NCBI RefSeq assembly: GCF_000025625.1
Contig: NC_013922.1
Coordinates: forward strand, 2,914,001 to 2,978,000
DNA from: Natrialba magadii ATCC 43099
Lineage (GTDB): Archaea > Halobacteriota > Halobacteria > Halobacteriales > Natrialbaceae
DNA: 64,000 bases
Reading direction: 5' to 3'
Below are positions 9,222 through 15,093 of the stretch, piece by piece. Under the pieces are notes generated by a model, which was not told where the DNA came from, ran no database searches, and worked only from the letters and a program-made list of their open reading frames with translations. Each line of letters starts with the position of its first letter. Position 1 is the stretch's first letter. The translations under genes were made by a program, and so were the position numbers.

Positions 9222-9400
9222 ACTCGCTGGTGCCCTCGGGTTCGGAAAAGTATGGGCTGCGAACGGATTCCTAGTCGCGGTTTACTCCTGAACGGCGTCC
9301 CCCACGGACACGCATACGCAACCCACCTCGAATCCAGAGCCAGGGCCTCGAATCCAGAGCCAGGGATGATTTTTTGCCACCGGCGACGGTACTCGAACCG

Positions 9401-10305: not shown

Positions 10306-11109
10306 TCAGTTGGTGGTGTGGTCGCTGGAGTTGGTACTGGTATCAGAATCAGTATCAGTATCAGAATCCCCAGTCGCATCGGCATCGGTCGAAGCCGGCA
10401 AGTTCGGATCCCGGTACGGATTTCGCCCATACGCCGGCAATTCCTCGTCGAGCTGGGCCTTCAGCACGCGCCGAAGGCGGTTCAGACTCGTCGTATCGAG
10501 GCCGTGGTCCGCCGCGAGGCGTTTGAACGTCTGCTCGTCGGTGATGTCGTGAGCGCGGTACTGACCGAACAGTTCGTCCATTCGATCGGTCGACAGCGCC
10601 TGTACGTCGAGCTCATCGAGTCCAAAGTAGGCCCGGCGGTCGACGTCGACGACGTGACGGATCACGACCAGCGCGACCTTGGGAATCGCACGCTGGCTGC
10701 CGAACTCGGTGAGGTCGATTTCGTCCATGACGCCGAGCGCGAGGTCGCGCTGCCAGGGTGTCAATTCCAGGGCGTTACACAGCGCCTGGGTCGTCCGCAA
10801 CCGGTCGAGGTGGTGAGCGCGCTCGCTGTAGCCCGGCGTGGCGGCGTGCTGTTCGTCGTGGAGTCGACGAACGCTCTCCGAGAGGTCCGCATCGGGTGAC
10901 TCTGCGCGGCCGATGACGGTCGCACTCGGTGTGACGACACCCCACTGGCGGACGGTCGTATCCCGCCTTGCAGCGGCACGGGAAAGCGTCCCCGCACCGG
11001 GACGGGTCTCGAGCGGGTGCTCGGGACGCTCAGAAGGGCGATCTGGGCGGGCAGTGACGGCTCCTGCCCGCTCGGGGACTGGACCGGGATCAGCACCGTC
11101 GTCGTACAT
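10306..11109 (-). CDS. haloarchaeal DNA-directed RNA polymerase subunit epsilon
   Basis: A 267-residue protein whose core VRQWGVVTPSATVIGRAES, LHDEQHAATPGYSERAHHLD and TPWQRDLALGVMDEIDL matches the haloarchaeal family annotated as RNA polymerase subunit epsilon, which copurifies with the enzyme in Halobacterium. The helical core resembles the cyclin-like repeats of transcription factor B. The first 50 residues are Pro/Arg-rich and the last 30 are Ser/Asp/Thr-rich, both probably disordered. A later start near residue 40 is possible. The nearest repeat copy on the 5' side starts 168 bp upstream. Confidence 0.75.
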   Translation of the reverse strand: MYDDGADPGPVPERAGAVTARPDRPSERPEHPLETRPGAGTLSRAAARRDTTVRQWGVVTPSATVIGRAESPDADLSESVRRLHDEQHAATPGYSERAHHLDRLRTTQALCNALELTPWQRDLALGVMDEIDLTEFGSQRAIPKVALVVIRHVVDVDRRAYFGLDELDVQALSTDRMDELFGQYRAHDITDEQTFKRLAADHGLDTTSLNRLRRVLKAQLDEELPAYGRNPYRDPNLPASTDADATGDSDTDTDSDTSTNSSDHTTN

Positions 11110-11538
11110 TGTCTGTCGCTCAGACAGGGAGACAGAAAAAGGCTCGCTCGTTTCGCGTGGCGTTTCAGCGGAACTGACAATTATGACGATAGCTCTGGAC
11201 GGGAGGAGACTCGAGTGGAGACGATCACGACCGATGCGGTCGCTCCGGAGTGCGTAGCCTCACCGCGAAAAGCCCTTCGTAGCTACACCTTGTGACCAGA
11301 AGCACTTAAAGGACGAGTGAGGGACGAGTGAGTGGTGACGTTCCGCAGAATCGGTCCGAGAAGACGGTGAACCGGCATCGGGAGGGAATCGGGACGGAAT
11401 AGTGGCTGGGGCGAAACGAGCGACCAAATGGAGCACGGAACAGTCCGGCAGCTCCGCACCCAGGACAAGCAGGAATGAGACCGACGCAAAACAGCGCGTC
11501 GGTGACCCGTCGTATCTACACCTTGTGACCAGAAGCAC
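11110..11538. other. 429-bp spacer without a supported gene
   Basis: The spacer holds repeat copy 1 and most of copy 2 and a perfect 7-bp stem (CCGACGC with GCGTCGG, 11481-11502). I see no convincing coding sequence; open frames here are out-of-register translations of the repeats. Confidence 0.5.
11277..11311 (+). repeat. 35-bp dispersed direct repeat, copy 1
   Basis: Begins TCGTAGCTACACC and ends AGAAGCACTTAAAG; differs from the other copies at one base (G for T at the seventh position). It lies 168 bp upstream of the RNA polymerase epsilon start. It is preceded by a small CGAA/TTCG inverted repeat, as is copy 3. Confidence 0.9.
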
Positions 11539-11544
11539 TTAAAG
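11510..11544 (+). repeat. 35-bp dispersed direct repeat, copy 2
   Basis: Exact consensus. The TAA stop codon of the nucleotidyltransferase gene (11539-11541, minus strand) lies inside it, so the gene ends within the repeat. Confidence 0.9.
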
Positions 11545-12690
11545 AACTGCCGCGAGCAACTCGTCGGTGAACTCGTCCAACCGCGCTGGCTCCGGCCCTG
11601 AACGTACGTGAATCGACGGCTCGATCTCGACCGACGGCTGTGCGAACTCGCGACCGACGACGTCGCCGACTTCCTCGTCGCCCTCGCCACGGCGCTTGCG
11701 CTCGAGCAGGTCCCGCGCGCGCTGGATTCGTTCAGTGTCGAAGACTGCCGGTGCCTGTTCGGTGAGAAATTGTTCGAACTCGAGTGCTGGGAGGTCGTGA
11801 CTGGTGTTGGTATCGGTGCCGGCATCACCAGTGGCGACAGTGTTGCCACCAGTTTCTCCGCACTCACCGGTTGCTTTCAGGTAGCGCGCGGCCATCGCCG
11901 CGCGATAGATAGTGAGGTTTCGTTTGACGGTGGGTTTCGTCTGTGTTTCAGTGAAACGCTCGTCGTCCGCAGCGATGGTCGTCGTCGGTACGTCGTCGCC
12001 ATCAGTTGCCAACGTGTCGGCTGGTTCGGCTGTTTCGACGACGTATTCGTCCGCGCGCGTCTCCACGATCGGAAAGAGTTCGTCGTCGCTGCGCACGAGG
12101 TGGTGTGAGATGTATTTCCGGTAGTTACTCGTGGCGATTCCACGGTAGGCGTGGTAGAGATCCATCGGGTTGTAGGTTCGTTCGACGTAGACCCGGAGTT
12201 CGTCGAGAACGGACGGATCGCACGCAAGTCGGTAGCGGATCGGGCTCCGAAGGAGGTCGATTGCGCCGTCGTTGGAGTTGGCAAGTAGGCGCATGAACTG
12301 CCGTATGTCCCAGCCCTGGTAGTCGAATTCGGCTCTGTTCTCGTCTCCGGTGGTGCTGTCTCTGCCGTCTCCGCTGTCGTTGCCGCGGTCGCTGTCGTCT
12401 CCGCAGTCTCCGTGGGCTCCAACGTCTTGATCCCCGCTATCGCCACGCTCCTCGCGCTGGATCACGATTGTCTCGTCAGGTCTCTGGAGGTGTGCGTATC
12501 GCCGGAAGTCAGTCGGAACGAAGACGAATCCGACGTCGTAGTCGCTCGCTGGACTCGCACCGCCCCAGGCGTAGCTCCCCCGGGCGACAGCCAGTACGAC
12601 CGTCACGTCGTGCACTCGTTCGATATCCTCGAGATGCGTCTCGACGGTTGTTCGAACGCGTGTAGAGATCCGCGATGCTGTCGGTGACAC
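11539..12690 (-). CDS. nucleotidyltransferase of the RlaP/YcgL-like family
   Basis: A 383-residue protein with a polymerase-beta-type nucleotidyltransferase motif: GSYAWGGASPASDYDVGFVF, where Gly-Ser and Asp-X-Asp supply the metal site, then QGWDIRQFMRLLANSN and AIDLLRSPIRYR, typical of the RlaP predicted nucleotidyltransferase family. The frame is open up to 12801, but those residues come from the repeat copy 3 translation; I chose the GTG at 12690 just before the first conserved helix, and the start is uncertain. Substrate is unknown; RlaP proteins are tied to RNA repair. The gene is bracketed by repeat copies 2 and 3. Confidence 0.7.
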   Translation of the reverse strand: MSPTASRISTRVRTTVETHLEDIERVHDVTVVLAVARGSYAWGGASPASDYDVGFVFVPTDFRRYAHLQRPDETIVIQREERGDSGDQDVGAHGDCGDDSDRGNDSGDGRDSTTGDENRAEFDYQGWDIRQFMRLLANSNDGAIDLLRSPIRYRLACDPSVLDELRVYVERTYNPMDLYHAYRGIATSNYRKYISHHLVRSDDELFPIVETRADEYVVETAEPADTLATDGDDVPTTTIAADDERFTETQTKPTVKRNLTIYRAAMAARYLKATGECGETGGNTVATGDAGTDTNTSHDLPALEFEQFLTEQAPAVFDTERIQRARDLLERKRRGEGDEEVGDVVGREFAQPSVEIEPSIHVRSGPEPARLDEFTDELLAAVL

Positions 12691-12772
12691 GTGTGTCTCA
12701 ACCGATGATAACGGAATGAAGTGTAAAGAGAACCGCGGTAACCGTGACGGGGTGGTGACCGCGAAGTGCCGT

Positions 12773-12807
12773 TCGTATCTACACCTTGTGACCAGAAGCA
12801 CTTAAAG
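12773..12807 (+). repeat. 35-bp dispersed direct repeat, copy 3
   Basis: Exact consensus, 83 bp upstream of the nucleotidyltransferase start on the minus strand and 86 bp upstream of the SDR start on the plus strand. Read on the minus strand it contains TTTAAGT, a possible TATA element. Confidence 0.9.
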
Positions 12808-12892
12808 GAATACTGGCAGCGGTGTGCGACGAACTCACGCCTGTCTTTCCGGCTTCTCGAAGGTTTTTGGTGATCCTCGGCGGGGCAGTAGT

Positions 12893-13654
12893 ATGATGGA
12901 TGAAAACACACTACAAGGGAAGTCAGCACTGGTGACCGGCGCAAGCGCAGGTATCGGACGCGAAACTGTTCGCGCACTCGCAGACGAAGGAATGAACGTC
13001 GCACTCGCGGCACGGCGCGCCGACGAATTGGACGAGCTGGCTGGGGCGGTCGAAGCGGAATATGGTGTCGAAACGGTCGCAGTACCGACGGACGTAACCG
13101 ACGAGGCTGCTGTCGATGACCTGGTCGCCGAGACAGTCGAGACCTTCGGCGGGCTCGACGTAGTGGTCGCGAACGCGGGAACCGGAACCGAACGCGGCGT
13201 CGGAATCGAGGAGTTAGACACCGAACAGTATCGGACCGTGATGGACGTCAACACCGACGGAATGTTCTTCACGACGCGAGCGGCCGTTCCACATCTCGAG
13301 GAATCGGCCGGGACGATCGTGTTCGTTGGCAGTTTCGCGGGGAAGTTTCCGCGGTCGGGAAGCCCAGTTTACGCGGGAACGAAGTGGTGGACCCGCGGGT
13401 TCGCGTTGAGTCTAGCCGCACAGGTCGGACCGGACGATATCGGTGTGACGGTCATCAATCCGTCCGAGGTCAGAACGGAATTCGGCAAGGAATATCGTGA
13501 CGAGGCGGAGTTATCGAAACAGCGGTACGAGCCGGGAGAGATCACCGAACCTGCGGACATCGCGGCGGCGGTTGTCTTCGCCGCGCAGCAGGAACCGCCA
13601 AACACCGTCACCGAGATTGACCTCTACCGACGGGATAAGTTCGAGATGATGTGA
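12893..13654 (+). CDS. short-chain dehydrogenase/reductase
   Basis: A 253-residue classical SDR. The dinucleotide-binding motif is TGASAGIG, ARRADEL follows beta 2 as in NADP-preferring enzymes, NAGTG lies after beta 4, the catalytic Ser is in FVGSFAGKFP and the catalytic Tyr-Lys pair in YAGTK. The ATG at 12893 (second ATG at 12896) immediately precedes the fold. Substrate unknown. It sits alone between repeat copies 3 and 4. Confidence 0.85.
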   Translation: MMDENTLQGKSALVTGASAGIGRETVRALADEGMNVALAARRADELDELAGAVEAEYGVETVAVPTDVTDEAAVDDLVAETVETFGGLDVVVANAGTGTERGVGIEELDTEQYRTVMDVNTDGMFFTTRAAVPHLEESAGTIVFVGSFAGKFPRSGSPVYAGTKWWTRGFALSLAAQVGPDDIGVTVINPSEVRTEFGKEYRDEAELSKQRYEPGEITEPADIAAAVVFAAQQEPPNTVTEIDLYRRDKFEMM

Positions 13655-14005
13655 AGGACGAGTGCGAACCGGATGGCACTCCGTTGAAGCGCTGCCGACG
13701 CAGATTTTGGCAGATGCCGCGCATGATCTGTCCTGTGTGGACGCAGGGTCTCCCTCAGAACTGTGCGGAATAGAGGGGTGCGGTCGATATGTGGAGTCCA
13801 GTCTCTTCAGTCAGAACAGTATGGAGCACGATCTGCAGAACGACGTTCTTCCGTCGTATCTACACCTTGTGACCAGAAGCACTTAAAGAGATGTTGTGCT
13901 GGAGTGGTTTCGCCGTTCGCCACTGCAACCGAGCCGTCTGCCGGTATTCGGCAGTGAACTGTCCGTTCCGAAAGGCATAATCGCGCGCTCCCCTGAATGC
14001 TGACA
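13655..14005. other. 351-bp spacer without a supported gene
   Basis: Contains repeat copy 4 but no coding sequence I can support. The start of MptA has little upstream leader of note. Confidence 0.4.
13854..13888 (+). repeat. 35-bp dispersed direct repeat, copy 4
   Basis: Exact consensus, 199 bp after the SDR stop and 117 bp before the MptA start. A five-base inverted repeat, ACGAC/GTCGT, overlaps its left edge. Confidence 0.9.
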
Positions 14006-14938
14006 ATGAGTCACCAGTTGCCGGACGTACAGGCGTCTTCGCCAGACGTCACCGTCGGCCTGAGCCAGGTCGGTGTCACCGGTGTCGAAAAGCTCGTCAA
14101 GCTCGCCCGCGAGGACAAGCGCCCGATCGTCCTCACCGCCGAGTTCGAGGTCTTTGTCGACCTTCCTGCCTGGCGCAAGGGCGCGGACATGAGCCGCAAT
14201 ATGGAGGTCATCGACGAAATCCTCGAAGACGCCACGCGCGAAGAGGCCTACCGCGTCGAAGAGGTCTGTGGTGACGCTGCAGAGCGCCTCCTCGAGAAAC
14301 ACGACTACACCTCTACTGCGAAAGTGTCGATGGAAGCCGAGTTCATGCGTCGCGAGCAGACGCCCGCAAGCGACCGCGAGACCCAACACACCGTCGACAT
14401 CATTGCCTCCGCGACAGCGACCGAAGACGGCACGCGCGAAGAAATCGGCGCGGAAGTAACTGGGATGACCGTCTGTCCGTGCTCGCAGGGCATGTCTGCC
14501 GCGCGTGCAAAGCAGACACTCGAGAACCTCGGCGTCGAGGAGGACACCATCACGCAGTTCTTAGAGGAGGTGCCACAGCCGGGTCACTCCCAGCGCGGGC
14601 ACGCGACGCTCACCGTCGAAGCAGGAGGTGACCCGGACGTGGATCTGAACGACATCATCGATATTGCGCGGGATTCGATGAGCGCGCGAATCTACAACCT
14701 GGCCAAGCGTCCCGACGAGGATCACATGACGTACGAGGCACACGCAGACGCGAAGTTCGTCGAGGACTGCGTGCGCTCGCTGGCCGAGGGCGTCGTCGAC
14801 GAATTCGACCACCTGTCGGACGATGCAGTTATCACGATGAAGCAGTCGAACGACGAGTCGATCCACCAGCACAACGCTCACGCCGAGCGCATCGTCGAGA
14901 TGGAGACGCTACGCGAGGAAGTAGCGGCCGATGAGTGA
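14006..14938 (+). CDS. mptA: GTP cyclohydrolase MptA (GTP cyclohydrolase IV)
   Basis: A 310-residue Fe(II)-dependent enzyme of the FolE2/MptA family that opens GTP to 7,8-dihydroneopterin 2',3'-cyclic phosphate, the first step towards methanopterin-like pterins and folate in haloarchaea. Conserved segments include [15 protein letters not shown] at the N-terminus, the cysteine-containing [17 protein letters not shown] in the middle and [14 protein letters not shown] with two histidines. Length fits the archaeal enzyme. The ATG at 14006 is preferred over an in-frame codon nine bases upstream. Confidence 0.9.
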
Positions 14939-14942
14939 CTGA

Positions 14943-15093
14943 GAGCGGAAGAGCGGAAGAGCAGAAGAGCGGAAGAGCAGAAGAGCGGAAGAGCAGAAGA
15001 GCGGAAGAGCAGAAGAGCGGAAGAGCAGAAGAGCGGAAGAGCGGAAGAGCAGAAGAGCGGAAGAGCAGAAGAGCGGAAGAGCGGAAGAACGGA
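14943..15093. repeat. 8-bp tandem repeat GAGCGGAA/GAGCAGAA
   Basis: About nineteen head-to-tail copies of GAGC(G/A)GAA fill the space between the MptA stop and the convergent TrmB gene. Confidence 0.9.

Follow-up and report, generated by a model that had tools for sequence, protein, structure and literature searches.

What are the four 35-bp repeats that bracket single genes, all in the same direction, at one locus of the haloarchaeon Natrialba magadii? The stretch of DNA under study (the window) comprises 64,000 nucleotides, and the original prediction made from it was of an integron-like arrangement, in which the repeats would be the recombination sites of gene cassettes; a repeated promoter, with TTTAAGT on the minus strand as a TATA-like box, was put forward as an alternative. 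The repeat, which we term M, was confirmed, and an integron-like nature is not supported. It is the promoter alternative that we favor, and we regard the four copies as probable tandem promoters of a class linked to the epsilon subunit of RNA polymerase.

The repeats were found where they had been predicted, as three exact copies and one with a single mismatch. On the plus strand, M2 (11510-11544), M3 (12773-12807), and M4 (13854-13888) begin TCGTAT and are identical to each other, and M1 (11277-11311) begins TCGTAG. All four copies agree at every position of a 29-nt core, and the number expected by chance in the window is zero (100 shuffles). A search of the whole genome (4.44 Mb, four contigs), in which the pattern was degenerate and 3 mismatches were tolerated, returned these four copies only, and the reversed pattern, used as a control, gave no match. 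Read on the minus strand, in which orientation we treat all four as features, M starts TTCTTTAAGTG, ends GGTRRAGCTACGA, and as a whole reads TTCTTTAAGTGCnTCTGGTCACAAGGTGnAGCTACGA. M1, a type A copy, continues on the minus strand into ACGAAGGGCTTTTCGCGG; M2, a distal copy, is of type B.

The gene nearest to the array is rpoeps (10306-11109, minus strand), which has M1 as its closest copy. Its product has no Pfam match, and it was identified through plasmid orthologs (56-58% identity) annotated as “DNA-directed RNA polymerase subunit epsilon.” Its link to the repeats, just to their left, was missed in the original prediction. M2 and M3 bracket an RlaP-type (PF10127) nucleotidyltransferase gene (11539-12690, minus strand; start chosen by codon score), with M3 upstream of it. 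As had been claimed, its stop codon lies within M2: positions 11539-11541, the TTA in CACTTAAAG, correspond to the TAA of the gene. An SDR-family oxidoreductase gene (12893-13654, plus strand), present in only part of the genus, follows, and M4 forms the right boundary of this SDR unit. A TATA-like TTTTTGG ∼27 nt before the SDR start codon is read as a promoter that would belong to the SDR gene itself. Beyond M4 lies mptA (TIGR00294; 13970-14938, plus strand), encoding a GTP cyclohydrolase. Its promoter, CCGAAAGGCATAAT (TATA at 13976-13981), is located ∼23 nt before the ATG at 14006 and is invariant in all seven Natrialba genomes, and M is therefore not the promoter of mptA; the idea that M serves mptA or other plus-strand genes was set aside for this reason. 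Two further repeats were observed in the vicinity, a tandem 8-bp array (AGAGCGGA/AGAGCAGA; ∼19 copies, 14938-15093) directly 3′ of mptA and a perfect 20-bp tandem duplication, CCTCGAATCCAGAGCCAGGG (9326-9365), upstream of the NAD kinase gene.

The genes between the repeats do vary, as the cassette reading had predicted. Across the stretch from the nucleotidyltransferase gene to mptA in seven Natrialba genomes, three, the genome of the window among them, have the SDR gene, another three have a VOC gene in its place, and in one genome (G006) there is nothing between the two genes except a single M. The left flank of this lone copy is that of copy 3 of its relatives and the right flank that of copy 4, so the change passes exactly through the repeat. 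Other genera have ABC genes or others between their repeats. In having direct repeats that enclose a changing set of genes, the locus does resemble integrons and attC arrays. However, the genome contains 13 matches to the tyrosine recombinase family PF00589, none of which is in the window and the nearest of which is 420 kb from the array, and no attC-like fold was found in the 35-mer (−0.5 to −0.6 kcal/mol; z of +0.7 to +0.9). The enclosed genes face both ways (the nucleotidyltransferase gene on the minus strand, the SDR and ABC genes on the plus strand), and single copies and arrays without genes also exist. The imperfect symmetry that had been taken as a feature of a recombination site is not kept across 219 usable M sites from 60 loci fetched from relatives, and the inverted repeat ACCGACGC/GCGTCGGT to the left of M2 (11480-11503; arms 11480-11487 and 11496-11503), similarly interpreted, is common to several copies in the genus and absent from other genera. 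Homologous recombination between 35-bp direct repeats, an ordinary process, would explain the same pattern of gene changes, and by this route the nucleotidyltransferase and SDR genes could be gained or lost. Considering also the tie to rpoeps described below, that M is an integron-like cassette site is very improbable.

The element extends well beyond N. magadii. M is a widespread haloarchaeal motif, present in 46 of 100 relatives (1 to 7 copies each, allowing up to 3 mismatches), mostly in clusters and in a single direction within each cluster; the reversed pattern had no match among the same 100. Most of the clusters occupy one setting, in the order NAD kinase, a DsbA-like gene, rpoeps (minus strand), the array, mptA (plus strand), a TrmB-type regulator, and a thioredoxin-domain protein, often with the RlaP-type nucleotidyltransferase gene (minus strand) inside the array. 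Among the 41 Natrialbaceae copies that lie nearest to rpoeps, TTCTTTAAGTGcnTCTGGTCACAAGGTGAAGCTACGAAGGGCTTTTCGCGG hardly varies, and near-invariance spans 50 bp. The sequence of M depends on lineage (variants include GTCACC, GTCGCC, and GTGACGAG), with most copies of one genome changing together. In one array, seen at two loci (L048 and L049), two subfamilies of M (TCGTATCTACTC... and CTATATCT...) alternate, as would be expected had they been copied in pairs.

What M might do is suggested by its layout, in which a TATA-like box is followed on one strand, after 25-26 nt, by a conserved start region. The closest precedent is provided by the class I intergenic repeats of the halovirus HF2, which reporter assays and primer extension established as promoters (PMC8707807). 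These 56-58-bp repeats lie between genes, in several copies of the same class; their TATA box is within TCTTTAAGT, and the mapped start is at the G of a conserved TAGAG motif 26 nt on (PMC8707807). Because M shares this layout, we read each copy as a putative minus-strand core promoter, with TTTAAGT as the TATA box and transcription predicted to start 25-26 nt on, in a strongly conserved GGTRRAGC stretch. The downstream CTTTTCG/TTCTC was our first choice for the TATA box and gave way to TTTAAGT on the HF2 precedent; in type A copies it may still be a second box. HF2 IR4 and M resemble each other in plan and are not close kin, since IR4 and the M consensus, aligned on TTTAAG, are identical at only 17 of 39 positions. 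The two differ further in that the HF2 repeats are viral, function in Haloferax volcanii, and have no tie to rpoeps. Tandem promoters are known from haloarchaeal rRNA operons, where several copies ∼100-130 bp apart precede one gene; their sequence is unrelated to that of M, and the gene here encodes a polymerase subunit.

Applied to the window, this layout places the TATA-like box of M1 at 11304-11310 (plus-strand coordinates) and its predicted start near 11285. Transcripts from here and from the predicted start of M2, near 11518, would run into rpoeps, and those from M3 (start predicted near 12781) into the nucleotidyltransferase gene. Upstream of rpoeps, the four copies would together make up an array of tandem promoters. 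The predicted start of M4 lies near 13862. Like some other copies that follow inserted genes, M4 is directed at the 3′ end of a gene, which speaks against the promoter reading.

The association of M with rpoeps recurs in many genera. M is located upstream of rpoeps and points into the gene in 71 of 80 named rpoeps loci, at a median distance of 172 nt, in Natrialba, Natrinema, Natronorubrum, Halobacterium, Halorussus, Haladaptatus, Halococcus, and others. No reversed M was seen upstream of rpoeps in the Natrialbaceae loci; Halorussus and Haladaptatus have reversed copies as well, just past the gene. Across 232 genomes sampled class-wide, a clear rpoeps was detected in 93 and M in 94, with 92 having both, 137 neither, one rpoeps only, and two M only (Fisher p ∼1e−61 if kinship is ignored, ∼1e−8 if genera and split genera are counted). 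The single genome with rpoeps only has a diverged ortholog (40% identical), and of the two with M only, one has a single chance-like match and the other has M beside a distant rpoeps paralog. A distant epsilon paralog (∼30% identical; G138:C1:1425320-1425847, L201) was observed in a genome without a true rpoeps; its stop codon is followed, after 52 nt, by an M-like motif. Many genomes also carry M away from rpoeps, and within two genera (g42 and g12) the gene and the element come and go together. In g42, M occurs at 6 and 11 scattered sites in the two rpoeps-bearing genomes and at none in the four that lack the gene. Most genomes of what is probably the family of Haloferax volcanii in this sample lack rpoeps.

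This co-distribution could stem simply from rpoeps travelling with its own promoter. M would then be the promoter or operator of rpoeps and a few other genes, read by general factors or by another regulator rather than by epsilon, and would track rpoeps only for that reason. The HF2 class I repeats, similar in layout, are active in Haloferax volcanii in the absence of viral factors (PMC8707807), and most loci have a TrmB-type regulator gene at a distance of two genes, both of which are consistent with such a reading. It does not explain the scattered copies, which lie far from rpoeps and are nonetheless confined to rpoeps-bearing genomes, even within one genus, and the conservation of M is far above what a general promoter would need. 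We therefore hold it to be a rather unlikely account, if one to be taken seriously. Judging from these sequence patterns, M is probably the DNA element with which epsilon works.

The scattered copies are also those that fit a promoter least well. Among ∼79 such sites in other families, rough gene calls place ∼28 in convergent and only 7 in divergent intergenic regions, and they are often found 5-50 nt behind a stop codon (loci L143-L202). This excess in convergent regions is unlike an ordinary mRNA promoter; transcripts from these copies would be antisense or orphan RNAs, unless the role of M goes beyond starting mRNAs. Several individual sites were recorded. In one genus of family f4 (L186, L187, and L191), M also occurs ∼100-110 nt upstream of the seryl-tRNA synthetase gene, pointing into it. 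A second M site is located between HtpX and a geranylgeranyl-reductase-like gene in three Natrialba genomes (L123, L124, and L125); it is absent from three others (L127, L128, and L129), and the locus is rearranged in the genome of the window. In genome G261 (L147, L148, L149, L151, and L152), M is flanked by a TRAM-domain gene and, in most cases, a PadR-like gene, both present in repeated and diverged copies; an ATPase gene belongs to the same larger repeated block.

A further possibility is that M is a dispersed element of a mobile or selfish kind, similar to a MITE or REP, spreading between genes with epsilon as its partner or passenger. Its spread in tandem, its excess between convergent genes, its presence and absence at the HtpX locus within a genus, and the repeated PadR-M-TRAM block would all accord with this. 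Against it, M is asymmetrical and without terminal inverted repeats, no link to a transposase was found, and its position and direction at rpoeps are fixed in many genera. An insertion footprint was sought at the HtpX locus, where the flanks are too diverged for a target duplication to be read, and the PadR-TRAM block was compared with congeners lacking rpoeps, the sequences of which are too diverged for an empty site to be called. Spread by viruses was rejected, with 8 exact matches among 2.9 million viral contigs being near chance by a rough estimate. On this evidence, we consider a dispersed element improbable.

Many M sites have gene-less neighbors at a spacing of ∼110-145 bp, and single copies also occur. 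This regularity, together with the orphan copies in convergent regions, might mean that M begins a small structured RNA gene, one for each ∼120-bp unit. Folding is, however, no better than that of shuffled sequences on either strand, no RNA structure was found downstream of M relative to shuffles, and nothing is conserved beyond the promoter-like part. Hairpins with TTCT loops, which at first impression seemed conserved, failed the shuffle test, and a known RNA family was discarded as there was no Rfam match. An RNA gene is accordingly highly unlikely, and we return to M as a promoter and to the question of which factor reads it.

The epsilon subunit was described from Halobacterium by Madon and Zillig in 1983, as cited in PMC8305020. 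It occurs in a subset of the haloarchaea and allows the purified polymerase to transcribe native templates, and its role is described as enigmatic (PMC8305020). The protein encoded next to the array is this same subunit, known since 1983, and no DNA element or fold for it was found reported in the literature that we searched. An AlphaFold model of epsilon is all-helical, with a mean pLDDT of 71. The structures matched by the confidently modeled part are TFIIB, Brf2, and cyclins, with a VIA Z of at most 11.6 (that for TFIIB), which is modest for a helical protein. The match to a TFIIB profile is weak, extending to 2 of 41 epsilon homologs with a best E of 0.0016, and a Foldseek search with the model gave no significant match (best E, 0.5). 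Taken as a prediction from the model, a TFIIB-like cyclin fold is suggestive only. No epsilon was found in phages.

Bringing these strands together, epsilon may be a TFIIB-like promoter-specificity factor for a second class of promoter, M, found only in archaea that carry the subunit, and may control its own gene through the tandem copies; we offer this joint reading as plausible, at somewhat less than even confidence. Recognition of M by epsilon itself, from which autoregulation of rpoeps would follow, is put forward just as tentatively.

The arrays would illustrate how repeated promoters can serve as hot spots for the entry and exit of genes. M also provides a concrete target for asking which promoters need epsilon. 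If epsilon does recognize M, then the archaeal polymerase of haloarchaea would carry a sigma-like specificity subunit.
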